Shown here: positions 1-15,372 of the stretch, in pieces | How the letters are laid out: every line of letters starts with the position of its first letter | How positions within the stretch are numbered: the first letter of the stretch is position 1 | NCBI RefSeq assembly: GCF_020012125.1 | Contig: NZ_JAIFAG010000001.1 | Coordinates: 3,162,001-3,226,000 of the forward strand | From: Hymenobacter psoromatis | Lineage (GTDB): Bacteria; Bacteroidota; Bacteroidia; Cytophagales; Hymenobacteraceae | DNA: 64,000 bases | Direction of reading: 5' to 3' | Position numbers and translations under genes: made by a program | The notes under the pieces: generated by a model | What the model was told of the DNA's origin: nothing | The model's input: the letters and a program-made list of their open reading frames with translations, nothing else | Databases searched by the model: none

Positions 1-1606
1 CGAAGCCGTAGAGCGTGATGGCCAGCACGCCCAGCGCCGAGAGCATCGCCACCGCGTCGCGGATATTTTTGCCCGCCCAATCCATCAGGAAAAACTTGTG
101 GAGCACCGCGAAGGACAACCCCTCGCGCCGGTCGCCGTCGGTGACGAGGGCGGCCAGGCGGCCGGTGCCGGGCTCCACGTACAGGACCGGATGGCCGGGG
201 CCGGCGTAGCTGAGCTTCATCACCGGCAGACGCTTATTTACGAAGCCGTATTCGCCGACAAACTTGGTCACCAGCTCGGGACTACCCAGGCTGGCCAGGG
301 CCGGCGTGGGGCTGCCTACCCCCCCCGCCGCGGCGGGCGCACCGATGGCCGCGGGAGCTTCGGCCTCCGCGGTGGGCGGGGCGCAGCATTCGGGTAAGGC
401 GCCGTCTTCGGCCGCGCCGGTGGCGCTGGCGGTGGCCGGGTGGCCATTCAGCGCCAGCATGAATTCCTGGCCCAGCTCGGCAGCGTATACCGACTCGCCG
501 GCGGGCAGCGGCTGGCCGTCGCGGGTGCTGCGGTACTGCACAGTAGGCTTACCCTCAGCACCTTTGCTCACAAGGCGGTAGTACGGCTGGCCGCCCACCC
601 GCGCCAGCGATACCCGCGTGACGGGCGCGGGGCCGGGTAGGGCGTCGGTCAGCGGCCAGGTCAGCTCGCTGGCGGCGAAGGCGCTCACCCGCGCCACTTC
701 CTCGCGGCGGTCGGGGTTGAATTTCTGAATTAAATGGTACGAGGCACTCAGGGCAAACGTGAACGTGACGAACGCCACCCACAGCCCCAGCGTGCGGTGG
801 CGCCGCCGCAGCCAGCCCACCCGGTCTTGGGCCGAGCGCGGCTGCCGCAGTTTTTTCCGCACGAAGCCGTACATCACCAATCCGCTCAGGGCCGACAGCC
901 AGATAACCGTTGTGAATACCAGCATGATGCCCAGGTGTAGCGGCCGGGGTAGGGCGTCGAGAAAATCCCAATTGTGCAGCATTCCAAACACCCACAGGAA
1001 GCGGGCGCGGGCGTGGTTGTTGAACGTGCCCATGCGGCTCTGCCCGGTTTCCACGAAAATGGCCATGCCATCGGGCCGGTCGAAGGTGATTTTCCAGACT
1101 GGCAGCAGGCGGTTAATAAACTTATAGTCAGCCGTATAGTGCGTTAGGCGCTCGGCGCTGGCCACGGCCGAAGTGGAGTCGGCCAGCAGGTAGCGGGCCA
1201 CGTCCTCGGCGTAGGTGCGGTCGCCGCCGGGCAGTTCCTGCCCAGTAGCGGCGGAAAAGTAGCGCAGCCGGCTGCGGTAGTCAGTTATCTGATAATAAGG
1301 CTGCTGCTGAAACTGCACCACCCGCAGGTTCTGGATGGCAACCAAGTGGTTCTGGCTCAGCACCTGCGCTACGGGCACGGCCAGCGCATTGGGCCGCAAC
1401 GGGGGGGTAGGCACGGTTTCGTGCGCAATGGCCGGCCGCAACCAGTTGGACATCAGCGGGTGCGACAACCCGCTGAGCGTCCACATAATAACCGGCAGCA
1501 GCGTAATCAGGCCCAGCGTGCGGTGCCAGCGGTACATATGGCGGCCCACGAAGCGCCGCATGGGCGAGGCCGCCTCACGGGGCGGCGGGGTGGAAGTGGT
1601 TTGCAT
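1..1606 (-). CDS. PepSY-associated TM helix protein, 3' end cut by the window edge
   Basis: The frame opens at an ATG at 1606 and is still open at base 1, so the C-terminus is missing. About 535 residues are visible. An N-terminal membrane segment follows a basic Tyr-Arg-Trp-His-Arg stretch (LGLITLLPVIMWTLSGL, about 30-46), and further hydrophobic segments lie near residues 215-245, 265-285 and at the truncated end. Two periplasmic PepSY-like stretches sit between them. This matches PiuB/PepSY_TM proteins, which in Bacteroidota usually accompany TonB-dependent siderophore receptors and are thought to act as inner-membrane reductases or transporters in iron uptake. It lies directly downstream of a TonB receptor on the same strand, separated by a hairpin repeat. 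The iron-uptake role is inferred from family and context; the substrate is unknown. Confidence 0.75.
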   Translation of the reverse strand, partial: MQTTSTPPPREAASPMRRFVGRHMYRWHRTLGLITLLPVIMWTLSGLSHPLMSNWLRPAIAHETVPTPPLRPNALAVPVAQVLSQNHLVAIQNLRVVQFQQQPYYQITDYRSRLRYFSAATGQELPGGDRTYAEDVARYLLADSTSAVASAERLTHYTADYKFINRLLPVWKITFDRPDGMAIFVETGQSRMGTFNNHARARFLWVFGMLHNWDFLDALPRPLHLGIMLVFTTVIWLSALSGLVMYGFVRKKLRQPRSAQDRVGWLRRRHRTLGLWVAFVTFTFALSASYHLIQKFNPDRREEVARVSAFAASELTWPLTDALPGPAPVTRVSLARVGGQPYYRLVSKGAEGKPTVQYRSTRDGQPLPAGESVYAAELGQEFMLALNGHPATASATGAAEDGALPECCAPPTAEAEAPAAIGAPAAAGGVGSPTPALASLGSPELVTKFVGEYGFVNKRLPVMKLSYAGPGHPVLYVEPGTGRLAALVTDGDRREGLSFAVLHKFFLMDWAGKNIRDAVAMLSALGVLAITLYGF

Positions 1607-1683: not shown

Positions 1684-4023
1684 TTACTCGCGCGCCTTGG
1701 CGGCAAACGTGTAGCCTAGCCCCAGCGTGACGGTGCGGGGCGCGGCGGCCGTGTAGGTAGTGCCGTACTGGTTGGCCGTTACCAGCGTGGAGTACAGCGC
1801 GTTACCCAGGTTGATGACGTTGGCCCACACCTCCAGGCCGCGCATGGCTGGCTGGGGTAGGCGGTAGCCCAGGCGCAGGTTCAGCAGGTTGTAGCCGGCG
1901 TAGGTTTTAGTGTTGGCCGTGTTGGTGAAGTAGGAGCCAATGCGCTGATACTCTAGGCCAATGCGCGCGCCGGGCGCAAAGCGCGGCTTGTAGTACACCT
2001 CCGCGTTGGCAATCCAGTTGGGCGCGTTCACCATGCGATTGCCGGCGTAGTCGCGGTTTTTACCCTGCACTACTTCGCTGTATTCCAGATACGTATGCCG
2101 GGCGTTGGTGCCGCTGAGGCGGAAATTCACTTCCGAAACGGGCGCATAAGTCAGCGTGTATTCGATGCCCTGGTGGCGGGTCGCGCCCACGTTCTGGCTC
2201 TGAGTGGTGTTGTCGGGCTGCAAAAGGCTCACGATTTCGTTGCGGCCTTCCATCTGGTACACGCTCAAATCCACGTACACTTTACGCTCAAACAGCGCTA
2301 CCCAGCCGCCGGCCTCGTAGTTCTTGAAGTTGGCTTCCTTCAGCTCGATTGTCTGGCGCGAGCTGTACAGGCTGCTGGTTTCGGGCGGCTGAAAACCGGT
2401 GCTGAAGTTGGTGTACACGCCCTGGGCCGGCCCCAGCGCGTAGGTCAGCCCCAGCTTGGGTGCCGCGATGTTGTACACATTATTTTGGGCGGCCTTCTTC
2501 GTGGTTTGCGCGCCGCTTAGGTTATTCACAAAATTGTACTGAACCCTGTCGTAGCGCAGGCCGCCCACAATGCGCAGCGCCTCGGTAGCCTGCACCTCAT
2601 ACTGGGCGTAGGCGGCCGCGTTGTAGAGGTCCGTTTTGTAGTCATCGATGTAGCGGCCGGTATCGGTATAACCGGTATAGAAGTTATTTACCACGTCTTT
2701 CTGAATGGTCAGGTAACGGGCGTAATAGGTGCTGGGGCTGTAATCAAAATACCCACCCACGATGAGCCGCGAATTCAGAAAGCCCAGGTCGGCGCGGTGC
2801 TGCACCAAAGCCCCGTAGCTATGAAACGACTGATTATTTACTTGGCCATTAGAGCTTTGATACACGCCATTGGCCCGCACGTCGGCGATGTAGTAACTCG
2901 GCAGCTGCCCGGTTGAGTTGTAGCGGGTGTAGGCCGTGAAAGCCGTTTGCTGCGCGGGGCTCCAATCGTGTTCCAGGCGCAGGCTGGCGCGCACGGCCGT
3001 CACCACGCGGTTGGTGAAGCGGTTGTTGCTGGCGTAGCTGCGGCTGTAAAAACGGGCGCTGTCGAGGGTGCCCGGCGTCTGGGTATTGAGGTAGTTATAG
3101 GTGCCCATGCCGACGAGCCGCGTTTTAGCACTAAACGAATAATCACCCCGCAGCGTCCACGACTCCTTATCGAAGTCGGTATAGTCCTGCCAGCCGTGGC
3201 GCTGCCGGGCCGCGTAGCCGCCCGCATACAGCCCAAGCCGACCTATTGTGCCGCTGGCGCTGGCATCGACGCGCCGGTAGCCGTAGTTGTCGCCCTGCAC
3301 CGACACGCCGGCCGTGGGCAGGGGGGTAGGGCGCTGGGTCAGAAAGTTAATAGCCCCGCCAATGGCATTGGAGCCGTAGAGCGACGAGGCCGGCCCTTTC
3401 ACCACTTCAATGCTGCGCACGCCGGCCTGGTTTATTTCATACAGCGCGTTGTGGTTGAAGATGCCAATGGGCCTAATCGGCAAGCCGTCTTCCAGATACA
3501 GATACACCGCGTTGGTGCTAATGGGCTGGCGAATAGCCATCATGTGCTGCTCATTGCCCAGGTTGACCATGTACACGCCGGCTACCTTGTTCAGCAGCTG
3601 GTAGGGCGCGGTGGCCTTGGTGTCGGCAATGAGTTGCGGCGACACCTGGCTGATGGCCACCGGCTCCTGGGTGCGCCGCTCCTGCTCGCGGCTGGCCGAT
3701 ACTACCACGCCTTGCAAACTCACCGGAGCCGCTTCGAGGCGCACCGTGAGCGGCTGGCCGCTGGCCGGCACCCGCACGTTCTGGGTGTTATACCCAATGA
3801 ATGAGACGATTATCTCGTGCACTCCCAGCGCCGCGGGCAGGCTAAAACGGCCATTGGCGTCGGTGGTAGCACCCACGTGGGTGCTGGGCAGCACCACGGT
3901 CACGCCCGGCAGCGGCTGCTGCGACTGCGCATCGAGCACGGTGCCGCGCAGCGGGGCCTGCTGCGCGCAGGCCAGGTTCAGACTGGCAAGGGCCAGCCCG
4001 GTAGTCATAAAAATGAATTTCAT
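1684..4023 (-). CDS. TonB-dependent receptor with carboxypeptidase-like regulatory domain
   Basis: This is an outer-membrane active transporter of 779 residues. I chose the ATG at 4023 because it begins a clean signal peptide (MKFIFMTTGLALASLNLACA); an in-frame start 33 nt upstream would hide it. Residues about 22-100 form a CarboxypepD_reg-like domain (PLPGVTVVLPSTHVGATTDA). The plug follows at about 105-225, with the VVKGPASSLYGSNAIGGAIN signature. The rest is a beta-barrel of alternating aromatic strands that ends in a terminal aromatic-containing strand (LGLGYTF, then a short tail). The gene lies between a secreted DJ-1/YHS protein and a PepSY membrane protein on the same strand, the usual company of siderophore or haem receptors. 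The ligand cannot be read from the sequence. Confidence 0.88.
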   Translation of the reverse strand: MKFIFMTTGLALASLNLACAQQAPLRGTVLDAQSQQPLPGVTVVLPSTHVGATTDANGRFSLPAALGVHEIIVSFIGYNTQNVRVPASGQPLTVRLEAAPVSLQGVVVSASREQERRTQEPVAISQVSPQLIADTKATAPYQLLNKVAGVYMVNLGNEQHMMAIRQPISTNAVYLYLEDGLPIRPIGIFNHNALYEINQAGVRSIEVVKGPASSLYGSNAIGGAINFLTQRPTPLPTAGVSVQGDNYGYRRVDASASGTIGRLGLYAGGYAARQRHGWQDYTDFDKESWTLRGDYSFSAKTRLVGMGTYNYLNTQTPGTLDSARFYSRSYASNNRFTNRVVTAVRASLRLEHDWSPAQQTAFTAYTRYNSTGQLPSYYIADVRANGVYQSSNGQVNNQSFHSYGALVQHRADLGFLNSRLIVGGYFDYSPSTYYARYLTIQKDVVNNFYTGYTDTGRYIDDYKTDLYNAAAYAQYEVQATEALRIVGGLRYDRVQYNFVNNLSGAQTTKKAAQNNVYNIAAPKLGLTYALGPAQGVYTNFSTGFQPPETSSLYSSRQTIELKEANFKNYEAGGWVALFERKVYVDLSVYQMEGRNEIVSLLQPDNTTQSQNVGATRHQGIEYTLTYAPVSEVNFRLSGTNARHTYLEYSEVVQGKNRDYAGNRMVNAPNWIANAEVYYKPRFAPGARIGLEYQRIGSYFTNTANTKTYAGYNLLNLRLGYRLPQPAMRGLEVWANVINLGNALYSTLVTANQYGTTYTAAAPRTVTLGLGYTFAAKARE

Positions 4024-4081: not shown

Positions 4082-4969
4082 TTATTTCTTCACGTACTGC
4101 GTGGGGTGGCGGCGGAAATTCTCGCGGCAGCTGGCCGAGCAGAAGTGGTAAGTGATGCCCTGGTAAGCCAGCTGCGGGCCGTCCTTACTTGGCACGGTCA
4201 TCTGGCACACGGGGTCGCGGGCCACATTGGCGGCCAGGGGGGCCGGCGGCCGGATGCCTGACTTGCCCAGTACCAGGCCCTGGCCCGGCTGCCACTTATC
4301 GTACTGCATGATGCGCGTGACCGCCACGGCCTCGTCGTGGCCCCGTAGCTCCTCCACCACGCGCAGCGCCCCGTCGATGCCGGCCGATACGCCGGCCGTG
4401 GTCAACAGCCGGCCATCTTCCACGAAGCGCTTGTCTTTCAAAACTTTAGCCTGCGGGTCGAAACGCTGGAGCGAATCCACGACGGACCAGTGGCTGGTGA
4501 TGCTTTTGTGGTGCGTGAGGCCCGCCCGGCTCAGGATGAACGCGCCCGTGCACACCGACATGGTGAGCTGCGTGTGCTGGTCGGCCTGCTTAATCCAGGC
4601 CAGCACGGCCGGGGTGCGGTACACGGCGGTTACCACCTCCATCGGCCCGCCCGGCACCACCAGGATATCGGGCTGCGGGGCAGTGGCCAGGGTGTAGTCG
4701 GCCGTCAGGTGCACGATATTACCCCTGGTAGCCAGGCTTTTAGCGCCCGTCGAAACCAGGTACACCTGCACATCCCGCGCGTTGCTGAACACCTCCGCCG
4801 GCCCCGAAAAATCGAGTAGCTCCATGCCGGGGTACACCAGGATGGCAACTTTTACCGGCTTGGTCATCGCCATTTTCATGGCCTGGCTGCGGGCGGGGAA
4901 GGGCCTAGCCAGCACGCTCATTCCTACGGCCAGCAGCCCTAGCAAGCTGCGCAATACGTTATTTTTCAT
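4082..4969 (-). CDS. Secreted DJ-1/PfpI-family protein fused to a C-terminal YHS metal-binding domain
   Basis: The protein has 295 residues from the ATG at 4969, which starts a signal-peptide-like segment (MKNNVLRSLLGLLAVGMSVL). Residues about 37-225 form a DJ-1/PfpI (class I glutamine amidotransferase-like) domain of the GlxA/isonitrile hydratase type, with the nucleophile elbow SVCTGAF (Cys140). Residues 251-293 form a YHS domain (DPVCQMTV, then FCSASCRENF) with Cys255, Cys277 and Cys281. YHS domains are known from copper- and heavy-metal-handling proteins such as P-type ATPases. The gene sits between two TonB receptor genes in one run of minus-strand genes. Enzymatic activity is unknown; periplasmic location and a metal link are inferred. 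The AraC-type DNA-binding half of GlxA regulators is absent. Confidence 0.82.
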   Translation of the reverse strand: MKNNVLRSLLGLLAVGMSVLARPFPARSQAMKMAMTKPVKVAILVYPGMELLDFSGPAEVFSNARDVQVYLVSTGAKSLATRGNIVHLTADYTLATAPQPDILVVPGGPMEVVTAVYRTPAVLAWIKQADQHTQLTMSVCTGAFILSRAGLTHHKSITSHWSVVDSLQRFDPQAKVLKDKRFVEDGRLLTTAGVSAGIDGALRVVEELRGHDEAVAVTRIMQYDKWQPGQGLVLGKSGIRPPAPLAANVARDPVCQMTVPSKDGPQLAYQGITYHFCSASCRENFRRHPTQYVKK

Positions 4970-5040
4970 ACTATTATTTGGTTGATAATCAGCCTTATTG
5001 GCAATCGTCTTGCGCATCTTCAAAAATTCAAAACGGCTGC

Positions 5041-7434
5041 CTAAAACCTGGCCGTGAGCGTGGTGCCCAGCAGGCGCGGCAGACTCTGCATATAGGTCGG
5101 CGACTGGGGGCTGAGCGAGCCGTAGGTGATGTACTTGCGCTCGAACACGTTGCGCACCCAAAAAGCCAGCTCCAGGTACCGCACGCTCACCCCGGCGCGG
5201 GTGTTGAAGAGGCCGTAGGCACCCTGCCCGTCCTGATTGTAGTAGTCGAAGTAGTAGGGCCCGAGGTAGCGCCACTCGCCCCGCACGAACAGGGCCGGCG
5301 GCTGCGGGCCCTGGCCTAGCTTATAGGTGTATTGCGCGGCCAGCATCGAAGTCACCACGGGCGTGTTAATCGGCTGGTTGCCGGCGTAGCTCTGGGTGCG
5401 ATTCTCCGCGTAATTGTAGAGGGGTAGGGCGGCGTAGCGGGCGTGGTTGTAGGCCGCGTTCCAGCTCAGCTCCAACCCCTTAACGGGCACGGCGGCCGCT
5501 TCCAGCTCCGCGCCGAAGTTGTTCATCTTGCCCACGTTCAGGATAGCGGAGTTCAGGCCGTTGCTGCTTACGGCTATCTGCTGGTTGCGCTGCTGCAAGT
5601 AGAACAGGGCCAGGTTGAGGCGGGCACGCTGGTTGGGCAGCGTTGTTTTCAGGCCCAGCTCGTAGTTGTCGCTCGCTTCGGGCTGGTAGGGAATCTGGGC
5701 CCGCGTGGGGGCCGTCGTGTTCAGGCCCCCGGCCCGGAAGCCGCGGGCGTAGCTGGCGTAGGCTAGCACATTGGCGCTGGCCTGATAGCTGACAATGGCC
5801 TTCGGCGACCAGGCACGGTAGGTACCCGTGAAAGTGGTATCGGCCTGCGTGACGGTGACCGGCCCGCCGCCTTGCTCAAAAGCGCTGCCGTTGACCAGCT
5901 CGCGCCGCTCGTAGTCGTAGCGCAGCCCGCCGGTCAGGCTCAGCCGGTCGGTGAGCTGGTAGGTGAGCTGCCCGAAGCCGGCGATGCCCCGGTTCAGGCT
6001 GCTACCAGTGGTCAAAAAGCCCTGTTCACTGGAGGCGGGGGGCGCTTGGAGCGAATCGGGCCGGAGGTAAAAAATGCTGCGCACGCCGGGCAGCGTGGCC
6101 TGCCGGAAGCCGAACGCCCCCACCGTCCAGCTCAGGCGGTGCTCGCTGCTGGGGTCCGAGGTTACCCGCAGCTCCTGGGTCCAGTTGCGCTGGGGTGTGC
6201 TGCCCTCGCCGCTAATCAGGTTTTGGGCCGTGAAGTCGAAGTCGTAGCGGTCGGGGTAATCAATAGTAAACCGTTGAAAACCCGTCACCGAGGTCAGCGT
6301 AGCGCCCGGCAAGTGATAGCTGGCTTTGAGCGAGGCATTAAAGTTGCGCCGCCGTTCGGTATTGGGGTAGTTGCTGTATATCTGCCAGGGCTGCTGCTCG
6401 ATTTGCTGCCGGGTGGGCACCCAGGGGTAGGCACCGCGGTCGTTGTTGTGCTCGTTATAGGCGCTCAACGCGAAGCTCAGCCGGTCGGTGGCCAGATAGC
6501 GCAGTGTGCCGTTGAAAAGCCACGAGGTTTGTTCGTCGAAGTCGCTGTTGGTCACCAGGTTCTTAAATATTCCCTGCCGGTGCCCGTACTGCCCGCCGAG
6601 GCTCAGAAACAGCTTGTCCTTCACCAGCGGGGCCTGCGCGGCCAGCGAATAGCGCCGCTGGCCGTAGTCGCCCACGCTCACCTCGGCGTAGCCGCCGGGC
6701 GTGTTGGTAGGCTGCCTGGTCACGATATTCACTACCCCACCCAGCGCGTTGCGGCCGTAGAGCGTGCCCTGCGGCCCGCGTAGCACCTCAATGCGCTCCA
6801 CGTTAAGCAGTTGCGTGGGAGCCGAAAAATAGTCGAACTGATATACTCCGTCCACATAAGTGGCCACGGCTTGCTCGTTGGTGAAGCCCATCACACCCCT
6901 GATGTTGAGGAAGTTGCCGCCCGTGCTGTTGGCGTGCTCAATCACGAAGAGGTTGGGGGCCAGGGCCGTCAGGTCTTTGAAATCCCAGACCCGGTACTCG
7001 CGCAATTGCTTGGTGCCCAGCGCCGACACGGCCATCGGCGTCTGCTGCAAAGTCGTTTCGTCTTTCTGAGCCGTTACTACCACTTCATCCAGTCCCGCCG
7101 TGCTCGGCGTGAGTGTTAGGGTAAGCGGCGCGGTCTGGCCGGCCGTTACCTCCACGGTTTGAGTGTGCGTAGCGTAGCCCACGCTGCTGATTACCACCGT
7201 CTGGCGGCCGGCTGGTACGTTGGCAATGGAAAAATGACCGCCCTGGTCGGCCGTCGCGCCGAGTGCGGAGTTGAGCACGGCCACCGTGGCGAAGGGCACG
7301 GGCTGGTGGGCGGCGGTCGTGATGGTGCCGCGCAGAGCACCCACGCTGGTTTGGGCACCGGCAACAAAGCTGCTGAGCAGCAGCAAGACGCAGACAGCCA
7401 CGAGCCGCCCGGTCAGGGAGAAAAAATTACCCAC
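5041..7434 (-). CDS. TonB-dependent receptor
   Basis: An outer-membrane receptor of about 797 residues. The start is uncertain. I prefer the GTG at 7434, because the next residues form a signal peptide (GRLVAVCVLLLLSSFVAGAQ); a TTG at 7506 would add 24 residues in front of it. A CarboxypepD_reg-like domain (VPFATVAVLNSALGATADQG) is followed by a plug with YVDGVYQF, VLRGPQGTLYGRNALGG and VVNIVTRQP, then a long barrel that ends in the canonical terminal Phe (LTARF). The preceding gene on this strand encodes a small Cys/His protein, and the MbnP/MbnH genes diverge from that point. Copper or copper-chelator import is a reasonable hypothesis but is contextual only. Confidence 0.87.
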   Translation of the reverse strand: MGNFFSLTGRLVAVCVLLLLSSFVAGAQTSVGALRGTITTAAHQPVPFATVAVLNSALGATADQGGHFSIANVPAGRQTVVISSVGYATHTQTVEVTAGQTAPLTLTLTPSTAGLDEVVVTAQKDETTLQQTPMAVSALGTKQLREYRVWDFKDLTALAPNLFVIEHANSTGGNFLNIRGVMGFTNEQAVATYVDGVYQFDYFSAPTQLLNVERIEVLRGPQGTLYGRNALGGVVNIVTRQPTNTPGGYAEVSVGDYGQRRYSLAAQAPLVKDKLFLSLGGQYGHRQGIFKNLVTNSDFDEQTSWLFNGTLRYLATDRLSFALSAYNEHNNDRGAYPWVPTRQQIEQQPWQIYSNYPNTERRRNFNASLKASYHLPGATLTSVTGFQRFTIDYPDRYDFDFTAQNLISGEGSTPQRNWTQELRVTSDPSSEHRLSWTVGAFGFRQATLPGVRSIFYLRPDSLQAPPASSEQGFLTTGSSLNRGIAGFGQLTYQLTDRLSLTGGLRYDYERRELVNGSAFEQGGGPVTVTQADTTFTGTYRAWSPKAIVSYQASANVLAYASYARGFRAGGLNTTAPTRAQIPYQPEASDNYELGLKTTLPNQRARLNLALFYLQQRNQQIAVSSNGLNSAILNVGKMNNFGAELEAAAVPVKGLELSWNAAYNHARYAALPLYNYAENRTQSYAGNQPINTPVVTSMLAAQYTYKLGQGPQPPALFVRGEWRYLGPYYFDYYNQDGQGAYGLFNTRAGVSVRYLELAFWVRNVFERKYITYGSLSPQSPTYMQSLPRLLGTTLTARF

Positions 7435-7563
7435 GAAAAAATAGTAGCTAGCAAGCCCGGCCCTGGGCCGGCCCTGATGAGACCTTACTGGTACACCGTT
7501 ACCCAACCGGCCCGCGCGCTGGCGCGGCCGCAGGCCCGTGGCTTTCCCGGTTTTGGGCGCTGG

Positions 7564-7935
7564 CTAGCCGCGCGGAGGCTGGTCAATGGCTCCGCCCGAC
7601 CCGTGGGGCACGGCCGCCGCAATGGTCGCCGGGTAGCACGTCGGCACGGCCCAGGCCACAGCCAGCCGCGGCTGCCAGCCGCCGAAGGCAGTCGGCAGCA
7701 TATCGAGCCGCTCCTTGAGCGGGCCAGCCGACTTGCTCTGGCGCTCCTCCTGCTTTTTGAGCTGCTTGGCGAAATAGCACTTGCCATCGCAATGCAGCTG
7801 GGGCCGGCTTTTATTCACGCAAAACTGCTGCGTAATAGCCGCCCGGTTAAGCACGAAATCCGCCACCAACAGCTCGCGGCTGAAGGTTTGCAGCAGCACG
7901 AGGCCAGCGAGCAAGTAGGCAAAAATGGATTTCAC
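7564..7935 (-). CDS. Small exported Cys/His protein with an HCDGKCY motif, function unknown
   Basis: 123 residues from a GTG at 7935, the first start that leaves a clean N-terminal hydrophobic segment (KSIFAYLLAGLVLLQTFSRE). The diagnostic part is QQFCVNK followed by LHCDGKCYFAKQLKKQEE (Cys39, His48, Cys49, Cys53), which could form a metal or disulfide site. I recognise this as a pattern seen in small uncharacterised Bacteroidota proteins near TonB receptors, but I cannot name a characterised family. A TAnnTTTG promoter box lies 30 bp upstream, so this is probably the first gene of the minus-strand metal operon, followed 129 bp later by a TonB receptor. Function is not established; metal sensing or delivery is a guess. 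Confidence 0.65.
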   Translation of the reverse strand: MKSIFAYLLAGLVLLQTFSRELLVADFVLNRAAITQQFCVNKSRPQLHCDGKCYFAKQLKKQEERQSKSAGPLKERLDMLPTAFGGWQPRLAVAWAVPTCYPATIAAAVPHGSGGAIDQPPRG

Positions 7936-7964
7936 GGGCAGCGAGGCGCGGGGGGTAGCTCCGG

Positions 7965-7972
7965 CAAAAGTA
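7965..7972 (-). promoter_or_regulatory. Putative Bacteroidota -7 promoter box for the metal operon
   Basis: Read on the minus strand this is TACTTTTG, an exact match to the Bacteroidota -7 consensus TAnnTTTG. It would place the transcript start near 7958, about 23 nt before the GTG at 7935. I saw no convincing -33 TTG at the expected distance. Confidence 0.5.
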
Positions 7973-8218
7973 CGGCCGCCGGGGCTGGCTCGGCTACTTT
8001 TTGAGCGCAAATATTCTTTTCTTCACGCTATTTTTAACCGACAATAGTAGCTTAGTACCTGACAAGCCGCTACCTTTAAAGACTGTCTAAAAAGCGTTTG
8101 GCTGGCTTTTTTTAAAACCCTGGTCCCGGACCGGAAACTTTCCGCTGCTACTGCTTGTGCTGGCCTTGTTCTTTTCAACTTCCTGCTTTTTTCGGTAAAT
8201 ACTACTTTTCCTACTCCG

Positions 8219-9016
8219 ATGAAAACCCGTCAGCTTACCGCCCTTTGCAGCTTGCTACTCGCCGGCTCGGCGGCCGTTTTTGTCGGTTGCAAGAAAGAAA
8301 CCGACTCGCCAGTAACTCCGCCCGTCACCACGCCGGGCGAGGTAGACTTGCAATTCAGCAACGTGGTGGGCACCAAGCCTCTGGCCCTCGATGGCACCGC
8401 ATACGCCACCCCAGCCGGTGAGACGTTTACCGTCACTACCCTTGAATATTACGTCACCAATATCAAGCTCACGAAGAGCGATGGCACCGTGTACGCCGCG
8501 CCCAACTCATACTTTCTGGTGGACCAAAGCAAGCCCGCTACCCAGCGCCTGGCCCTGACCAACGTGCCGGCCGGCACCTACACCGGCGTGAGCTTCGTGC
8601 TGGGCGTGGACGCGGCCACCACCCAGGCCGACCCCTTACAGCTAACTGGCGCACTTAACCCAGCCAACAACATGTACTGGTCCTGGAACACCGGCCACAT
8701 TTTTATGAAAATGGAGGGCCAAGTAACGTCAGTAACTCCGGCCTACCCCCTCACCTGCCACATCGGCGGCTACACCGCGCCCTACGATGCCATCGTCACG
8801 GTAACGCCGCCGCTGAACGGCAGCACCCTGACCGTGAACGGTGCTCACGCCCCTACCCTCTTCGTGCAGGCCGATATGCTGAAGCTGTTTGATGGTATTA
8901 ACCACATCACGCTCAGCCAGTACTCTAACGCCATGCGGCCAGGTGCGGAGGCCCTGCAGGTAGCCCAAAACTACCAGGCCGGGATGTTTACCGTCACTAA
9001 AACCCAGGCTAACTAG
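8219..9016 (+). CDS. MbnP-family copper-binding lipoprotein
   Basis: 265 residues. The N-terminus is a lipoprotein signal with a lipobox ending FVGC (Cys24). The family signature is MYWSWNTGHIFMKMEG at residues 152-167, which contains Trp154, Trp156, His160, Met163 and Met165; a second conserved-looking segment is LTCHIGGY (His181). Known biology: MbnP was defined next to methanobactin genes, and its dihaem partner MbnH converts a Trp of MbnP to kynurenine, which enables copper binding; many homologues occur away from methanobactin operons. The MbnH-like gene begins 4 nt after this stop codon, so the pair is probably translationally linked. Which Trp is modified here is not known. Confidence 0.85.
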   Translation: MKTRQLTALCSLLLAGSAAVFVGCKKETDSPVTPPVTTPGEVDLQFSNVVGTKPLALDGTAYATPAGETFTVTTLEYYVTNIKLTKSDGTVYAAPNSYFLVDQSKPATQRLALTNVPAGTYTGVSFVLGVDAATTQADPLQLTGALNPANNMYWSWNTGHIFMKMEGQVTSVTPAYPLTCHIGGYTAPYDAIVTVTPPLNGSTLTVNGAHAPTLFVQADMLKLFDGINHITLSQYSNAMRPGAEALQVAQNYQAGMFTVTKTQAN

Positions 9017-9020
9017 CGGC

Positions 9021-10139
9021 GTGCGCGCTTGGCGGCCATCGGCGAAGGGGCCGGCGCTCCGGCTGGGGGTAGGGCTAGGCTTTGCAGCGCTGCTCGCGGC
9101 GGCTGGCTTCGGCGCGGCGCGGCGGCCGGCGGCCGCGCCGGGCGCGGTACTACCCGCCCACTTTCCGGCCCCAGTATACACGCTGGCCCAGAACTCACCC
9201 GATGAGGCCACGTTTAAGCTGGGCCGGACGCTGTTTTACGACCCGCGGCTGTCGAGCAACGGCACCGTCTCGTGCGGCTCGTGCCACCAGCAAAGCCGGG
9301 CCTTCACCGATGGGCGGGCCCTGGCCGTGGGGGTAGGCGGCCGCCTGAGCCCACGCAACGCCCCGGCCTTGCAAAACCTGCGCTGGCGGCGCGGCTTCAT
9401 GGCCGACGGCGGCGCGCGCGGCCTGGAACTGCAAGCCCTGGCCCCACTTACCAGCCACGCCGAGATGAATTTATCCCTGCCCGCCGCGCTGGGCCGCCTC
9501 AACGCCAACCCCGAATATCGCCGCCGCTTCGCCGCCATCTACGGGCCGGGCACCATTGACACGCCCCAGTTTCTGCGGGCGCTGGCGCAGTTCACGGCCG
9601 CGCTTACTTCGGCCGACTCGCACTACGACAAGTACCTGCAACACGCACCAGGCGGCACCTTCAACCAGCCGGAAGTGAAGGGCTTAACTATTTTTCGGGC
9701 GAAGTGCGGCGGCTGCCACGTCGGCGAGCTATTTACCGACGAGAGCTTTCGCAACAACGGCCTTGACCGCGCGTTTCCCCGCGATTCGGGCCGGGCAAAT
9801 ATTACGCTGCTGGCCACTGACCGGGGCCGCTTTAAGGTGCCCAGCCTCCGCAATGTGGCCCGCACCGCGCCCTACATGCACGACGGCCGCTTCGCTACCT
9901 TGCCCCAGGTGCTGGCCCACTACGCCCACGGCGTGCGGCCCTCCCCTACCCTCGACCCGCAATTGCGCCGGGCTAATGGCCAGTTGGGCATTCCGCTTTC
10001 CCATGCGGAGCAAACGGCATTGCTGGCTTTTTTGAACACGCTGACTGACGAGCAGTTTCTGACCGATAAGCGCCTGGCCGCGCCCCGGCCGGAAACCAAG
10101 CTGGCCCCACCGCGCGTTGTGGCGGTTAGCGTTGAGTAG
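9021..10139 (+). CDS. MbnH-like dihaem c-type protein of the cytochrome c peroxidase/MauG superfamily
   Basis: 372 residues from a GTG at 9021. An N-terminal membrane or signal segment (LRLGVGLGFAALLAAAGFGA) directs export. There are two c-haem sites, CGSCH at 85-89 and CGGCH at 229-233, in the bacterial dihaem peroxidase fold (KLGRTLFYDPRLSSNGTVSC, and later APYMHDGRF). In the MbnP/MbnH pair this enzyme oxidises Trp in MbnP to kynurenine. Tight linkage to the mbnP-like gene supports that assignment over an ordinary H2O2-removing peroxidase. Alternative: a generic cytochrome c peroxidase. The distal ligand and activation residues were not resolved. Confidence 0.82.
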   Translation: MRAWRPSAKGPALRLGVGLGFAALLAAAGFGAARRPAAAPGAVLPAHFPAPVYTLAQNSPDEATFKLGRTLFYDPRLSSNGTVSCGSCHQQSRAFTDGRALAVGVGGRLSPRNAPALQNLRWRRGFMADGGARGLELQALAPLTSHAEMNLSLPAALGRLNANPEYRRRFAAIYGPGTIDTPQFLRALAQFTAALTSADSHYDKYLQHAPGGTFNQPEVKGLTIFRAKCGGCHVGELFTDESFRNNGLDRAFPRDSGRANITLLATDRGRFKVPSLRNVARTAPYMHDGRFATLPQVLAHYAHGVRPSPTLDPQLRRANGQLGIPLSHAEQTALLAFLNTLTDEQFLTDKRLAAPRPETKLAPPRVVAVSVE

Positions 10140-10179
10140 CGGCGCGGACCGCCTATTTTTACTGAACAATCTCCCTGCC

Positions 10180-11325
10180 ATGCCCTTGTTTACCAATTCT
10201 TTCCGTGGCTCAGCTTTGGTACTGGCTGCTATCGCGCTGCTGAGCGCGGCCAGCTGCGGCAAGGATGGCGGCGGGGGCGTGGACCCTACCCCCCCGGCCC
10301 CTACTCCGGCTGCGCCCACGCCCTACGTGCTCGCGCTGCCGGCGGGCTTCCCTACCCCCGTCATCCCAGCCGATAACCCGCTCACCGTGGAGGGCATCGC
10401 GCTGGGCCGGCAGCTGTTTTACGAAAAAGCCTTGTCGAGCACCGGCACTATGAGCTGTAGCTCATGCCACCAGCAAAGCAAGGCCTTTACTGATGGCCTA
10501 CCCCTGGCGGTGGGCGTAGATGGCGTGGCCAACCCGCGCGGCACCATGTCGCTGACCAACGTGCTCTGGAGCACCCAGCTTACCTGGGACGGGGCCTTCA
10601 CGACCCTCGAAACTCAGGCTGTAAAACCCCTGGAAAATACTGTGGAGCTGCACCAACCGCTCACAGTGGGAGTAGCTAAATTGCAGGCGCTGAGCCAGTA
10701 TCCGCCGCTGTTTCAAGCGGCTTTTGGTACCCGCACTATCACCAATGAGCTGACCCTTAAAGCGCTGGCGCAATTTGAGCGCACGCTGATTTCGGGCAAC
10801 TCGCGCTATGATAAATTTATGGCGACTCGCCTGGGCTTTACTGCCGACGAGGTAGCGGGCCTCAAGCTTTACACCACGCACATCGCGCCCGGCTCGGTGC
10901 GTGGGGCCGAGTGCTTTCACTGCCACACGCAGCCGCTGATGTCATCGGGCTATGAGGGCAAGTTTTTCAATAATGGCCTCGACCTCACTTTTCCTGACCC
11001 CGGCCGGGGCGGCCTCACCAAGCTGGCCGTGGACCAAGGCAAATTCATCGCTCCTACCCTGCGCAACATTACCCTCACCGCGCCTTATATGCACGATGGC
11101 CGCTTCAAAACGCTGGAGGAAGTGCTCGACCACTACTCCGACCACGTGCAGATGAACAGCCCCAACCTCGACAATAACCTGGCCGCGCCCGCCGGCATCA
11201 ACGACCCGCCTTTCGGCACCCACATGGACCTCACGGCCACCGAGAAAAAACAGGTTATCGCCTTTCTGAAAACGCTGACCGATTCAACGTTCATTGCCGA
11301 TAAGCGCTTCTCAGACCCCCACTAA
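10180..11325 (+). CDS. Second dihaem cytochrome c peroxidase-like lipoprotein
   Basis: 381 residues from the ATG at 10180; an in-frame GTG at 10117 inside the upstream gene is less likely because the ATG begins a lipoprotein signal with lipobox LLSAASC (Cys26). After a Pro-rich linker come the first haem motif CSSCH (about residue 92) and the second, CFHCH (about 245), then APYMHDGRF. Overall layout equals the preceding MbnH-like protein, so the two are tandem paralogues. Membrane anchoring through the lipid differs from the upstream copy. It may be a true peroxidase, an electron donor or a second Trp-modifying enzyme; the sequence does not decide. It ends three bases before a 37-bp-arm hairpin that separates it from convergent ftsZ. 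Confidence 0.82.
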   Translation: MPLFTNSFRGSALVLAAIALLSAASCGKDGGGGVDPTPPAPTPAAPTPYVLALPAGFPTPVIPADNPLTVEGIALGRQLFYEKALSSTGTMSCSSCHQQSKAFTDGLPLAVGVDGVANPRGTMSLTNVLWSTQLTWDGAFTTLETQAVKPLENTVELHQPLTVGVAKLQALSQYPPLFQAAFGTRTITNELTLKALAQFERTLISGNSRYDKFMATRLGFTADEVAGLKLYTTHIAPGSVRGAECFHCHTQPLMSSGYEGKFFNNGLDLTFPDPGRGGLTKLAVDQGKFIAPTLRNITLTAPYMHDGRFKTLEEVLDHYSDHVQMNSPNLDNNLAAPAGINDPPFGTHMDLTATEKKQVIAFLKTLTDSTFIADKRFSDPH

Positions 11326-11411: not shown

Positions 11412-12899
11412 TTAGTCTACGTTGTCGTGCAAAAACCGGTTGTCGCCCAGCAGCTCGTTGTCGTCGCTTAGGTTGAAGCGCGAGATATTCTGGGCGCTGC
11501 TGGGCGTCACGGGCTCCAGCTTCTGGCCGCGGCGCAGGTAGGCGGGCGTGTCGAGGTGGGTAGTGGCTTCGGGCGAGAGACCCTGGCTCTGGCTAAGCTG
11601 CTGCAAACGACGACGGCGCTCCTCGGCCTGCGCTTCCAGCATGGCCGGGCGCGGGCGTGGGGCGGGGGTAGGCGCACCGGCTGCCGGCTGGCTGGGCAGC
11701 AGCACCGGGTCGCCGGGCGTGCCAATGGGCGCACCGGCCAGGCCAGTCTGCGCGTGGGGGGTAGCCGGGCCATTCAGCTCGTAGGTGACGCGGGCTGGCT
11801 CGGGCGTGGTAAAGCTCGGCACTACCGGCGCGGCCGGAGCCGGCTTGTCCGCTGCAGTAGCCGCCGGCTCGGCGGGGGTAGGCGCGGCGGTTAGCTCAGT
11901 CTCGGGCCGGTTGTTGGTCGAGATAGTGTGCGCCTCGCGGGCAAAGCCAGTGGCAATAACCGTCACCCGAATGCTCTGGCCCAGGGTGTCGTCGGTGCCG
12001 TGGCCAAAAATCATCTCGGCGTCCTCGCCGGCTTTGCCTTGAATATATTCCGTGATTTCGGATAGCTCATCCATTTCCAGCTCCGCCTGGTCGCCCGACA
12101 TAATACTGAGCAAAATCTTCTGCGCGCCCTGAATATCGGTGTTATTGAGCAGTGGCGAGTTCAACGCCTCCTCGGCGGCGCGGCGGGCGCGGTTCTCACC
12201 CTCCGTCACGGAGCTACCCATCACGGCGGCTCCCGAGTCCTTCATCACCGTTTTCACGTCCTCGAAGTCCACGTTCACATCGGCCGTCACCGTGATAATC
12301 TCGGCAATGGACTTGGCAGCCGTGGTCAGCACCGTATCGGCCTTGGCAAACGCCTGGCCCATCGTGAGGTTGCCGTAGAGCTGGCGCAGCTTGTCGTTGA
12401 GAATTACCAGCACCGTATCGCAATGCTCGCTCAACTCCTTAATGCCTTGCTCGGCCTGGTCGCGCTTCTTCTTCCCCTCGAATAAAAACGGAGCCGTGAC
12501 GATACCCACCGTCAGAATATTCAGCTCCTGCGCTACTTGTGCGATAACCGGAGCTGCGCCCGTGCCCGTGCCGCCGCCCATGCCAGCCGTGATAAACAGC
12601 ATCTTGGTGCCGTTGCTGAGCAGCTCTCGAATTTGCTCCCGCGATTCCAGCGCCGCCTGCCGGCCGCGCTCGGGCTTGGCCCCGGCACCCAGGCCTTCGG
12701 TCAGGTCCACCCCAATCTGGAGCTTATTGGGCACCGTGGAGCTTTCCAGCGCTTGCCGGTCGGTGTTGCAGATAATAAACTCCACGTCCTTGATGCCCTG
12801 CTTGTGCATGTGCTTCACGGCGTTGGAGCCCCCGCCCCCTACCCCAATCACCTTAATGATGGAGCGGCTCTGGGTCGGAATGTCGAAGGTAAAATTCAT
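11412..12899 (-). CDS. ftsZ: Cell division protein FtsZ
   Basis: 495 residues from the ATG at 12899 (MNFTFDIPTQSRSIIKVIGV); a longer frame to 12938 runs into repeat sequence and is rejected. The tubulin-like GTPase shows VGGGGSNAV and the signature GGGTGTGAAPVIA near residue 105. A long Pro/Ala-rich linker follows (about residues 320-450), and the C-terminal peptide ends FLHDNVD, the Bacteroidota form of the FtsA-binding tail. FtsZ polymerises at midcell as the division ring scaffold. It is the last gene of the dcw cluster, with an imperfect palindrome between it and ftsA. The linker carries APVVPSF, also present in the FtsA C-terminal region here. Confidence 0.98.
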   Translation of the reverse strand: MNFTFDIPTQSRSIIKVIGVGGGGSNAVKHMHKQGIKDVEFIICNTDRQALESSTVPNKLQIGVDLTEGLGAGAKPERGRQAALESREQIRELLSNGTKMLFITAGMGGGTGTGAAPVIAQVAQELNILTVGIVTAPFLFEGKKKRDQAEQGIKELSEHCDTVLVILNDKLRQLYGNLTMGQAFAKADTVLTTAAKSIAEIITVTADVNVDFEDVKTVMKDSGAAVMGSSVTEGENRARRAAEEALNSPLLNNTDIQGAQKILLSIMSGDQAELEMDELSEITEYIQGKAGEDAEMIFGHGTDDTLGQSIRVTVIATGFAREAHTISTNNRPETELTAAPTPAEPAATAADKPAPAAPVVPSFTTPEPARVTYELNGPATPHAQTGLAGAPIGTPGDPVLLPSQPAAGAPTPAPRPRPAMLEAQAEERRRRLQQLSQSQGLSPEATTHLDTPAYLRRGQKLEPVTPSSAQNISRFNLSDDNELLGDNRFLHDNVD

Positions 12900-12907
12900 A
12901 AAGAGGT

Positions 12908-12984
12908 CAATTATCAATGAGCAATGAATAATGAGCAAGTACGGCTGCTAATAGCAAGCATTACTCATTATTCATTGATAATTG
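12908..12984. repeat. Imperfect AT-rich inverted repeat between ftsA and ftsZ
   Basis: The outer arms CAATTATCAATGA../..TCATTGATAATTG pair, and inside them one arm carries an extra 7-nt repeat of the word AATGAATAATGAG. The AT-rich sequence is unlike the flanking genes. It lies within the operon, so it may adjust ftsZ expression or simply be a tolerated repeat. Confidence 0.7.
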
Positions 12985-12994
12985 TTCAGTACTA

Positions 12995-14392
12995 TTAGTA
13001 TTGTTTATCGTCAAAATCATCAATCAGAATACTCTTCAGCTTGCGGGTGATGTCACCCAAAAACTTGAGGCCCTTCTGCTCTTTCGGCGGCTTGGGCGGC
13101 TCGGAGGGGGTAGGGGCGGCGGCCTGCGCGGCGGCCGGCACGAAGCTGGGCACCACCGGCGCGGCGGCCGGAGCCGTAGGCTGGTAGCTGTAGGTCGATG
13201 CTTCTTCCTCCCCGTAGCCGGGGCGGGCCTGGCGCTCGTCGCCGGCCTGGTAGCCGGCTAGCACGAGGCCCACGCCGGTGGCGTGCATCGGCGACTTCAC
13301 GGCCTCAATCTTACCCTTGCCCAAGTGCTGGTTGGGGTAGCCGATGCGCGTGTCGAGGCCGGTGAGGTACTCAGTCAGCTGCTCCAGGTTCTGGAGTTGC
13401 GAGCCGCCGCCGGTGAGCACAATGCCCGCCGACAGCTGCTCGTGCAGGCCCATGCGGTAGATTTCCGCATGCACCAGCTCGATAATCTCCGACATCCGGG
13501 CCTCGATGATGTAAGCCAAATTCTTGAGCGACACCTCCTTGGGCGGGCGGTTGGGCAGGCCCGGAATGCTCACGATTTCGTAGTCGCTGGCCTCCTCCGC
13601 GATGGCCTTGCCAAACTTCACCTTCAGCTGCTCGGCTTGGTTAGGCGTCACGTTGCAGCCCTGCTTAATGTCCTGGGTAATAATATTGCCCCCGAACGGC
13701 AGCACCGCCGCGTGCCGGATAATACCATCCTTAAACACGGCCAGGTCGGTGGTGCCGCCGCCAATATCAATCAGCGCCACGCCGGCTTCCTTTTCCTCGT
13801 CGCTCAGCACCGATACGCTCGAGGCCAGCGGCTCCAGAATAAGGTCGGCAATGGCCAGGCCCGCCTTGGTCACGCACTTATTAATGTTATTGATAGCCGC
13901 GCTCTGCGCCGTGATAATGTGGAAGTTGCCTTCCAGCCGCACACCGGCCATGCCAATGGGGTCGAGCACGCCGCCCTCAAAATCCACCTTATAATCCTGC
14001 GGCATCACGTGGATAATCTGCGAGCCGGGCGGCGTCACCAGGCGATACATGTCGGCTGTGAGGCGATTCACATCGTCCTGAGTTATCTCGTTATCGCCGC
14101 TGGGCCGCGTGATGGAGCCGTTGTGCTGCAAGCTCTTGATGTGCTGCCCCGCAATGCCCACGTTCACTACCCCAATGTCGATACCCGATTGCTCCTCGGC
14201 CTGCCGAATAGCGCGCTTAATGGCGTCTACCGTCTTGTCGATATTGAGCACGAGGCCGCGCTGCACGCCTTCGGAAACGGCCTTCCCCATGCCTAGAATT
14301 TCGAGCTTGCCGTACTCGTTTTTGCGGCCCACCAAGGCGCAGATTTTAGTGGTGCCGATGTCGAGGCCGACGACTATTTTATCCTGTTGCAT
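12995..14392 (-). CDS. ftsA: Cell division protein FtsA
   Basis: 465 residues. An actin-fold ATPase that tethers FtsZ to the membrane. The N-terminus has the phosphate-1 loop VGLDIGTTKICALVGRK, and later motifs include ALIDIGGGTTDLAVF (phosphate 2) and IVLTGGGSQL (adenosine loop). After residue about 385 comes a Pro/Ala-rich disordered stretch (TAPAAAPVVPSF, then KPPKEQKG) and a basic amphipathic end (LKFLGDITRKLKSILI) that fits the membrane-targeting helix, followed by an acidic tail. Position between ftsQ and ftsZ is standard. Length and motifs are normal for Bacteroidota. Confidence 0.97.
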   Translation of the reverse strand: MQQDKIVVGLDIGTTKICALVGRKNEYGKLEILGMGKAVSEGVQRGLVLNIDKTVDAIKRAIRQAEEQSGIDIGVVNVGIAGQHIKSLQHNGSITRPSGDNEITQDDVNRLTADMYRLVTPPGSQIIHVMPQDYKVDFEGGVLDPIGMAGVRLEGNFHIITAQSAAINNINKCVTKAGLAIADLILEPLASSVSVLSDEEKEAGVALIDIGGGTTDLAVFKDGIIRHAAVLPFGGNIITQDIKQGCNVTPNQAEQLKVKFGKAIAEEASDYEIVSIPGLPNRPPKEVSLKNLAYIIEARMSEIIELVHAEIYRMGLHEQLSAGIVLTGGGSQLQNLEQLTEYLTGLDTRIGYPNQHLGKGKIEAVKSPMHATGVGLVLAGYQAGDERQARPGYGEEEASTYSYQPTAPAAAPVVPSFVPAAAQAAAPTPSEPPKPPKEQKGLKFLGDITRKLKSILIDDFDDKQY

Positions 14393-14477
14393 GGGGAAGG
14401 GGCGAGCAGTGAAAGAACGGAAACTAATTTACTTAGCAAAGTAGCTAAAAAACAGACTTTTGATTAACAAGCGATTA

Positions 14478-15236
14478 CTACTCGCAAATTATTTGATTTT
14501 GGTATTCCACGTTGACGCGGTGGTACGTATCCCAGCCTAGCACCGAAGGAATTTGACGGTAAAATACCATCAATTTGGCGAATTTTCCTGAAATATCCTC
14601 CGGCGCGCCAAACTCCACGCGCTGGTCGCCGACCTGCTGCGTGAAGCTGAGCTTACCGCCCGGCTCCACAAACACCTCCGCCACCTGCGCCCGCCAAAAC
14701 GGGTGCTCGTCTACGTAACGCAAAAAATCGAGGTAGCCGCGGCTGGTGCTATCCTGGAAAAAAGTGGTGGGCAGCGCCCCGCCGCCGGCCCGGCTCACGG
14801 TGGCCACCCGCGCCGTATATAGTGGCGAGAGGGGCAGAAGCTTGCCGCTGGCATCTACGTAGGTGTCGAGGCGGTCGTCGGGGTGCACGAGCCGGGCAAT
14901 GGGGCGATTTTGGCGCACGTCGGCATGCAGGTCGCCGGCCAGGTCACGGTATACCTGCGCGTCGCGCACAAAAGGGTGCGCCTTCAGCCGGCCTTCCAGC
15001 TCGCGCAGGCGCGGGCCCTCCGGCACGGTGCCGATTACCGGCTCCCTACCCCCCTTGGTGAGCAGTGCCGTTACACCCCGCTCACTGATAAAATAATTAT
15101 TAAAGTCGTTGGCCACGTTCACCACGATATTCTGCACCGGGCGATGAGACTGCCGCACGGCCGCGAAGACGGCCATGCCACCCAACCCCAGTAGGCAAGC
15201 CAACGCGACGAGCAGGTTACGAACGGTTTTAGTCAC
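14478..15236 (-). CDS. ftsQ: Cell division protein FtsQ/DivIB
   Basis: 252 residues from a GTG at 15236. One N-terminal membrane segment (LLVALACLLGLGGMAVFAAV) is followed by a periplasmic POTRA-like region (VRDAQVYRDLAGDLHADVRQ) and a FtsQ domain ending with a conserved-looking HRVNVEYQNQI. FtsQ links the early ring to the FtsL/FtsI synthase complex. The call rests on topology and position directly upstream of ftsA in the dcw order, because FtsQ sequences diverge strongly. About 130 nt of AT-rich sequence with short inverted repeats separates it from murC. Confidence 0.88.
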   Translation of the reverse strand: MTKTVRNLLVALACLLGLGGMAVFAAVRQSHRPVQNIVVNVANDFNNYFISERGVTALLTKGGREPVIGTVPEGPRLRELEGRLKAHPFVRDAQVYRDLAGDLHADVRQNRPIARLVHPDDRLDTYVDASGKLLPLSPLYTARVATVSRAGGGALPTTFFQDSTSRGYLDFLRYVDEHPFWRAQVAEVFVEPGGKLSFTQQVGDQRVEFGAPEDISGKFAKLMVFYRQIPSVLGWDTYHRVNVEYQNQIICE

Positions 15237-15273
15237 GAAAAGGCAGTTTTAATTAATAACTTTTATTACTTTC

Positions 15274-15372
15274 TAATAACGTTTATCCTTGCAAGTGAAG
15301 CGCAGTAATTACAGCAGAACGTATCGTGCGGGTGCGATTGCCGCGCTCCAATCGCACTGACAAACGTTATTA
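15274..15372. repeat. Nested short inverted repeats between murC and ftsQ
   Basis: Outer arms TAATAACGTTT (15274-15284) and AAACGTTATTA (15362-15372) enclose an inner hairpin GTGCGATTG/CAATCGCAC (15332-15340 and 15349-15357). The right outer arm covers the murC stop codon (15370-15372). This is weaker than the other repeats of the window. Confidence 0.5.

Follow-up and report, generated by a model that had tools for sequence, protein, structure and literature searches.

Divergent MbnP/MbnH-like and TonB-PepSY genes of Hymenobacter psoromatis and a family of probable CutF/CruR-like leader proteins in Bacteroidota

Genes of the locus

A 64,000-nucleotide stretch of the Hymenobacter psoromatis genome (assembly GCF_020012125.1, contig NZ_JAIFAG010000001.1, positions 3,162,001 to 3,226,000; genome size approximately 5.15 Mb), here called the window, carries two divergently transcribed groups of genes: the lipoprotein MbnP with two MbnH-like di-haem enzymes on one strand, and two TonB-dependent receptors with a DJ-1/YHS protein and a PepSY protein on the other, headed by a small cysteine-containing protein (LDR) that belongs to a leader-like family. 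The locus is probably a copper-acquisition module of two back-to-back operons, in which LDR acts like the leader proteins CruR and CutF. The features, in window coordinates, are the following.

7564..7935, minus strand: LDR, CutF/CruR-like leader protein of 123 amino acids; GTG start inferred from relatives, CVNKSRPQLHCDGKC motif, C-terminal end DQPPRG
5041..7434, minus strand: TonB receptor T1; GTG start inferred, open reading frame (ORF) open up to a TTG at 7506
4082..4969, minus strand: secreted-looking DJ-1/PfpI + YHS protein, placed with T1 between LDR and T2
1684..4023, minus strand: TonB receptor T2, 78-92% identical to the post-leader receptor of ten Hymenobacter loci
1..1606, minus strand: PepSY_TM protein, extending past the left end of the window
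8219..9016, plus strand: MbnP lipoprotein; W154-x-W156-x-x-G-H160, H181
9021..10139, plus strand: MbnH1, MbnH-like di-haem enzyme in which Ala replaces the inter-haem Trp (FMADGG)
10180..11325, plus strand: MbnH2, second MbnH-like di-haem enzyme, with the inter-haem Trp retained (LTWDGA)

Reading away from MbnP, the minus-strand order is LDR, T1, DJ-1/YHS, T2 and PepSY_TM. MbnH1 starts 4 nucleotides (nt) after MbnP, and MbnH2 is followed by ftsZ on the opposite strand. The first-pass annotation of this DNA had described MbnP, MbnH1 and the five divergent genes as they are given here; the second MbnH-like enzyme and the membership of the Cys/His protein in a leader-like family are additions to it. 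A sigma-70 promoter scan of positions 7300-8300 gave no match with a model that is not suited to Bacteroidota, and the same scan gave seven terminator-like sites against 2.0 expected, two of which, on the leader strand, fall within T1 (7369-7386). Division and wall genes including ftsZ (11412-16755) adjoin the MbnP-MbnH locus, and many other Hymenobacter loci have an ftsZ match beyond MbnH.

Genes were compared as stop-to-stop ORFs with inferred starts. The MbnP-centred set consists of 121 loci (120 fetched regions and the window) with 126 MbnP ORFs; 16 of the loci are shorter than 15 kb, and the fetched regions represent nearly all matches of one MbnP search and the stronger matches of another, approximately 25-30 weaker ones having been left out. 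Sets of 59 relatives and 296 Bacteroidota genomes both include the genome of the window. Individual loci and genomes are designated by L and G numbers.

MbnP and the MbnH-like enzymes

MbnP, the sole match of the genome to Pfam family PF20243, passes it with 185 bits (cut-off 27). Its predicted structure (mean predicted local distance difference test score, pLDDT, 88.7) resembles 7l6g, the MbnP of Methylosinus trichosporium, with Z 17.9 and a root-mean-square deviation of 3.0 over 211 aligned residues, the next structural match having Z 7.9; by sequence, a single-sequence search of the PDB gave no match and a profile search recovered 7l6g. The two proteins share the fold, the WxW motif and an adjacent di-haem partner, and the two Trp residues of the motif, intact in the window, are kept in 125 and 120 of the 126 family members. 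In contrast to the M. trichosporium system, the genome has no MbnB-type gene and the locus has two MbnH-like genes; the window MbnP has two Cys, counting from the lipobox Cys, and does not show the four-Cys motif to which the PDB name of 7l6g refers; and His160 (numbered from Met1) follows WxW..G where 112 of 126 relatives have Tyr. The MbnB family (PF05114) has no match anywhere in the genome and matches 2 of 14 control genomes, in agreement with the earlier suggestion that the locus is methanobactin-independent.

Several other Hymenobacter copies of MbnP are variant. Four loci with LDR and a beta-barrel gene (described below) lack MbnH, and their motif is WxM..EF or WxW..EF instead of the usual WxW..GY (L059, L064, L072, L077). 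Further copies without LDR adjoin MbnH and a TonB gene (L074, L075, L081, L086), three of which (L074, L075, L081) have Asp where most MbnP have His181. Changes of the WxW motif go only partly with the absence of MbnH, and a general connection was rejected: where no MbnH adjoins MbnP downstream (19 genes), the second Trp and the Tyr are both retained in 12.

MbnH oxidises a Trp of MbnP to kynurenine, which enables MbnP to bind copper. MbnH1 and MbnH2, which are 43% identical, both contain the CCP_MauG domain (PF03150), and their best NCBIfam family is TIGR04039 (MbnH family di-heme enzyme), with 219 and 261 bits respectively against a cut-off of 363. The best PDB sequence match of both is 6e1c ("Di-heme enzyme"), which we take to be MbnH of M. 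trichosporium, ahead of peroxidases. Among 139 aligned MbnH-like proteins, the haem Cys and His residues are kept in all, and the inter-haem Trp is absent from 25. Loss of this Trp from MbnH1, together with the scores below the family cut-off, would be compatible with ordinary di-haem peroxidases and an MbnP that carries no kynurenine; such a reading is unlikely, given the rank of 6e1c, the nearly invariant WxW motif and the observation that BthA forms bis-Fe(IV) without an inter-haem Trp (PMC6405878). Because BthA works without this residue and 25 relatives lack it, its absence from MbnH1 carries little weight; nevertheless, the Trp-to-kynurenine step cannot be transferred as such to an MbnH1 that lacks it.

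A family of probable CutF/CruR-like leader proteins

Two small copper-responsive proteins are the closest known parallels of LDR. CruR of Bordetella senses copper through a CXXC motif during translation and regulates, through a RAPP motif, the genes of a TonB receptor and of a PepSY protein, and its relatives, mostly in Proteobacteria, head operons of TonB-dependent transporters with PepSY proteins or of MbnPH-like proteins (PMC9426467). CutF of Rhodobacter senses exported copper through CxxxC and a C-terminal proline motif; Bacteroidota account for 19% of 5,334 listed CutF-like proteins (40% after proteome normalisation), and TonB genes are frequent neighbours of CutF-like genes (PMC9973294).

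LDR of the window has a visibly hydrophobic N-terminus and the Cys motif C-x9-CxGxC (CDGKC), and matches no Pfam or NCBIfam family. CutF-like proteins were delimited in PMC9973294 by a size below 150 residues, Pro-Pro within the last 15 residues, a Sec signal peptide according to SignalP and a following gene no more than 1000 nt away on the same strand. LDR has 123 residues from the inferred start or 148 from the first in-frame start codon, ends in DQPPRG, and is followed by T1 at a distance of 57-129 nt, depending on the T1 start chosen. By the motifs of CruR it would not be recognised, having CDGKC and DQPP instead of CXXC and RAPP.

Relatives of LDR are widespread, with matches in 42 of the 59 relatives (single-sequence query) and 123 of the 296 Bacteroidota genomes (alignment query). 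The 121 MbnP-centred loci yielded 82 members, 80 of which have Pro-Pro within the last 10 residues, compared with 30 of the 1732 remaining ORFs in these loci; the profile spans the Pro-Pro columns, although a first single-sequence search had nevertheless found 77 ORFs. Pro-Pro is also present in every one of the 43 members from 40 regions picked outside the fetched MbnP loci, and altogether 199 of 203 distinct members have it within the last 12 residues. The spacing between CxGxC and Pro-Pro is 61-70 residues in the 80 members (66-68 in 57 of them). The C-terminal motifs FHPP (34) and FRPP (24) dominate among the 82, and RAPP and RGPP do not occur in the last 15 residues of any member. In an alignment of 54 members chosen for diversity, which excludes the two without C-terminal Pro-Pro (L054 and L136), the invariant columns are three Cys and two Pro at a mean column identity of 30%. 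A GTG or TTG start was inferred for 43 of the 82.

The resemblance to CruR (DUF2946), the leader of the bp2923-bfrG-bp2921 operon of Bordetella pertussis, consists in a small, predicted-exported Cys protein with Pro-Pro near the stop codon that heads operons containing genes for a TonB receptor, PepSY_TM or MbnPH-like proteins (PMC9426467). Unlike CruR, LDR has CxxxC rather than CXXC, F[HR]PP or DQPP rather than RAPP, a spacing of 61-70 rather than 45 residues, and no match to DUF2946. A search of the 59 relatives with this family (PF11162) gave no match at any LDR position and one below the cut-off elsewhere (G025), while 1 of 14 controls was above the cut-off; and a Pfam scan of the 54 aligned members gave, among 25 of 28 families listed, none that matched more than three members and no DUF2946. 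CutF of Rhodobacter capsulatus and CutF-like proteins share with LDR a short length, CxxxC, Pro-Pro near the C-terminus and a downstream gene on the same strand (PMC9973294); CutF differs in its spacing of 45 residues and in controlling the multicopper oxidase CutO. LDR may well be among the CutF-like proteins of Bacteroidota in that study, the main text of which does not name MbnP.

Selection along LDR was estimated from 10 leader genes of the window's type as the ratio of nonsynonymous to synonymous polymorphism (pN/pS), which is 0.17 around the Cys motif, 0.65 in the middle and 0.40 at the C-terminus. Strong, weak and intermediate constraint in this order would be expected if the protein consisted of a sensor, a spacer and an arrest motif. 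The same hydrophobic N-terminus, conserved Cys and purifying selection (0.36 overall) might belong instead to a copper chaperone or reductase that works in the periplasm as part of the import system and is no regulatory leader, but we consider this improbable: the middle of the protein is its most variable part, the distances from Pro-Pro to the stop codon and to the Cys motif are maintained, GTG or TTG starts are frequent, and the downstream region is structured in the family (see below), though not in the window. LDR is more likely a regulatory leader than a transport component.

Genes headed by the leader family

LDR lies upstream of MbnP on the same strand within 1.5 kb for 63 of the 126 MbnP ORFs, and elsewhere in the locus for 14; the median gap between the two genes is 124 nt (62 cases, inferred starts). 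The first recognised gene after LDR, counted over the 203 distinct members, is MbnP in 87, TonB in 64, a beta-barrel gene in 9, another LDR in 6, DJ-1 in 5, MbnH in 3, PepSY in 1 and something else in 28. Since part of the loci had been selected for MbnP, the ratio of MbnP to TonB in this count says little, but the small number of gene classes is informative. By parsimony on a quick tree of LDR, at least 19 changes are required between members of the MbnP type and of the TonB type. Across the 296 Bacteroidota genomes, MbnP is found in 78, LDR in 123 and both in 58 (odds ratio 6.8, by a Fisher's test that ignores kinship). A tandem pair of LDR genes heads a single operon in six loci (L187, L188, L265, L268, L270, L272).

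In 56 of the 121 loci, MbnP has a beta-barrel gene on its own strand at a distance of no more than 3 kb. It follows MbnH in L032-L044, L091 and other loci, where the mature N-terminus of its product is often CDICGC; 45 of 59 copies have CxxCxC, mostly in this form, within the first 60 residues, and the distant members L264, L271 and L274 are rich in Met and His. The protein matches no Pfam or NCBIfam family, and its model (pLDDT 78.6, 14 strand elements) is nearest to the COG4313 channel 4rl8. The barrel is matched in 36 of the 59 relatives.

The 37 Hymenobacter loci fall into three arrangements: 20 have LDR-MbnP-(MbnH)-barrel, often with MbnH2, 10 lack LDR, and in the remaining seven, including the window, a divergent leader heads TonB-PepSY genes and there is no barrel. 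A genome-wide search also found no barrel in any of these seven genomes, all of which have His160 in MbnP, Ala for the inter-haem Trp of MbnH1, and the Trp of MbnH2. The His160 of MbnP, the Ala of MbnH1 and the lack of a barrel match are traits of this one group, the window clade, and may go back to a single event.

The nearest relatives of the window LDR by quick-tree distance mostly head TonB genes, several of them away from MbnP (L226, L228, L232, L233, L239); in one member of its group (L224), MbnP is the next gene, approximately 670 nt on. The candidate explanation that the window LDR is an inverted MbnP leader was therefore rejected; a leader-TonB-PepSY operon standing beside an MbnP operon whose own leader is missing fits better.

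RNA following the leader

In the family at large, the 100 nt after LDR fold better relative to dinucleotide shuffles than the 100 nt before or within it. For leaders of the MbnP type (n=87), the mean z-score is -2.18 after LDR, -0.69 before and -0.54 within; for the TonB type (n=64), the values are -1.27, -0.50 and -0.72, all from leader sequences that are related to one another, so that P values from this comparison would be too strong. The best single hairpin starts at a median of 28 nt past the LDR stop codon in both types, with wide spread. After the stop codons of L114 and L118, the hairpin TTCCGTT/AACGGAA of one and ATCCGTT/AACGGAT of the other constitute an apparent paired change. Approximately 60-150 nt past the LDR stop codon, ahead of the TonB gene, most of the related loci L222-L236 share a block resembling GCCTTGCCCC...GTTTGTTT, which was not seen in the window.

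The TonB-PepSY genes

Related loci have counterparts of T2 and of the PepSY protein in their own receptor and PepSY protein. T1 is only 25-27% identical to the receptors of those loci and is closest, among the loci compared, to receptors of Arsenicibacter (L291) and Spirosoma (L293), at 44-45%. The best match of the window DJ-1/YHS protein in 58 other genomes searched is 44% identical; T1 and this protein resemble the TonB and DJ-1 genes that accompany LDR and MbnP in the same Arsenicibacter and Spirosoma loci. Their placement between the leader and T2 may explain the unusual C-terminal end and RNA of the window leader. The DJ-1/PfpI domain of the window protein (4082-4969) is followed by a C-terminal YHS metal domain, while a relative beside MbnP in L106 has the DJ-1 domain alone.

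The PDB neighbours of T1 are the pesticin receptor, then 9gbc and several ferrichrome receptor entries; those of T2 are the unspecified TonB-dependent receptor 9rvq, then the colicin I receptor, with siderophore or B12 receptors also listed. Such neighbours would suit an operon that imports an iron siderophore and stands beside MbnPH by accident. There is only a slim chance of this, since one leader family heads both MbnP and TonB-PepSY operons, and copper downregulates the CruR-TBDT-PepSY operon in B. pertussis (PMC9426467).

The first-pass annotation had proposed a closer union, with the divergent genes forming a single import machine that uses MbnP as its carrier in the periplasm. Beside MbnP, TonB genes accompanied by PepSY or DJ-1 do recur in several lineages: the window clade, and, headed by a leader and on the same strand as MbnP, G049 (L046), G183 (L106), G231 (L128), Arsenicibacter (L291) and Spirosoma (L293); the window clade has such genes while no barrel was found in its genomes. 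The association is not general, because an ORF matched by TonB profiles lies within 3 kb of MbnP in only 16 of the 121 loci, compared with 56 for the barrel; with the whole fetched region included, the number of loci is 28 (the two profiles were built from T1 and T2 and may miss distant receptors). A common leader family, moreover, does not demonstrate that metal is handed over. The single machine is possible, then, but falls somewhat short of probable.

Proposed function

LDR has the same general plan as CruR and heads the same two types of operon, and for these reasons it is proposed to be the Bacteroidota counterpart of CruR, with both operons serving copper acquisition. In the probable copper-acquisition module, the rightward operon would supply MbnP, matured by at least one of MbnH1 and MbnH2, and the leftward operon would encode an exported LDR followed by the TonB receptors and the PepSY protein for uptake across the outer membrane and reduction. 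The Cys motif of LDR would bind copper during translation and export, and binding would set the pausing of the ribosome at the C-terminal Pro-Pro and thereby control the downstream genes. From the spacing, and with 30 plus 17 residues as estimated in PMC9973294, the Cys motif would already be outside when the ribosome reaches Pro-Pro. For an importer, the logic of CruR would be expected, with the operon on when copper is scarce.

A more specific proposal can be put forward tentatively. LDR might be a Bacteroidota family of copper-sensing arrest peptides that has no detectable relationship to CruR. As a switch shared by MbnP-MbnH-barrel and TonB-PepSY operons, it would read copper after its Cys motif emerges in the periplasm (61-70 residues before the pause, versus 45 in CutF and CruR); in the window clade, MbnPH might have exchanged the barrel for TonB-PepSY, with changed sites in MbnP and MbnH1.

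Several observations weigh against these interpretations. MbnP has 53.5 bits with the equivalog TIGR04052, the cut-off of which is 140, and both MbnH-like enzymes are likewise below the cut-off of their family. LDR is absent from the fetched locus of 49 of the 126 MbnP genes, and 65 of the 123 LDR-bearing genomes have no MbnP match. The window LDR is itself atypical in ending with DQPP instead of F[HR]PP, and L054, which lacks the C-terminal Pro-Pro, is one of the seven members of the window clade. The stretch after the window LDR does not fold better than its shuffles (z -0.54; +0.78 in a second test), unlike the family at large, so that a special RNA structure at that place was rejected. Among the PDB matches listed for T1 and T2, no entry is named as a copper receptor, and no copper experiment on the LDR family was found.

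Relation to published surveys and significance

Two parts of this description have been published: MbnP/MbnH pairs outside methanobactin producers were described in 2013 (PMC3621798), and CutF-like proteins have been reported as common in Bacteroidota. For the LDR-MbnP-MbnH-barrel operon, no published statement was found in the open PMC literature. A 2025 survey of RAPP and RGPP motifs in EMBO J (PMC12992588) reports that leader ORFs of copper genes occur in various lineages, with the exception of some such as Bacteroidota, and that TonB-related leader ORFs are universal in Gram-negative bacteria. A search for RAPP or RGPP would miss LDR, because none of the 82 members ends in either motif, and LDR thus gives a possible reason for the Bacteroidota gap in that survey. 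If LDR is a copper switch, it would mark copper-import genes in many Bacteroidota, provide a physiological context for MbnP and MbnH outside methanotrophs, and offer a short list of genes for the direct study of copper-dependent ribosome pausing.

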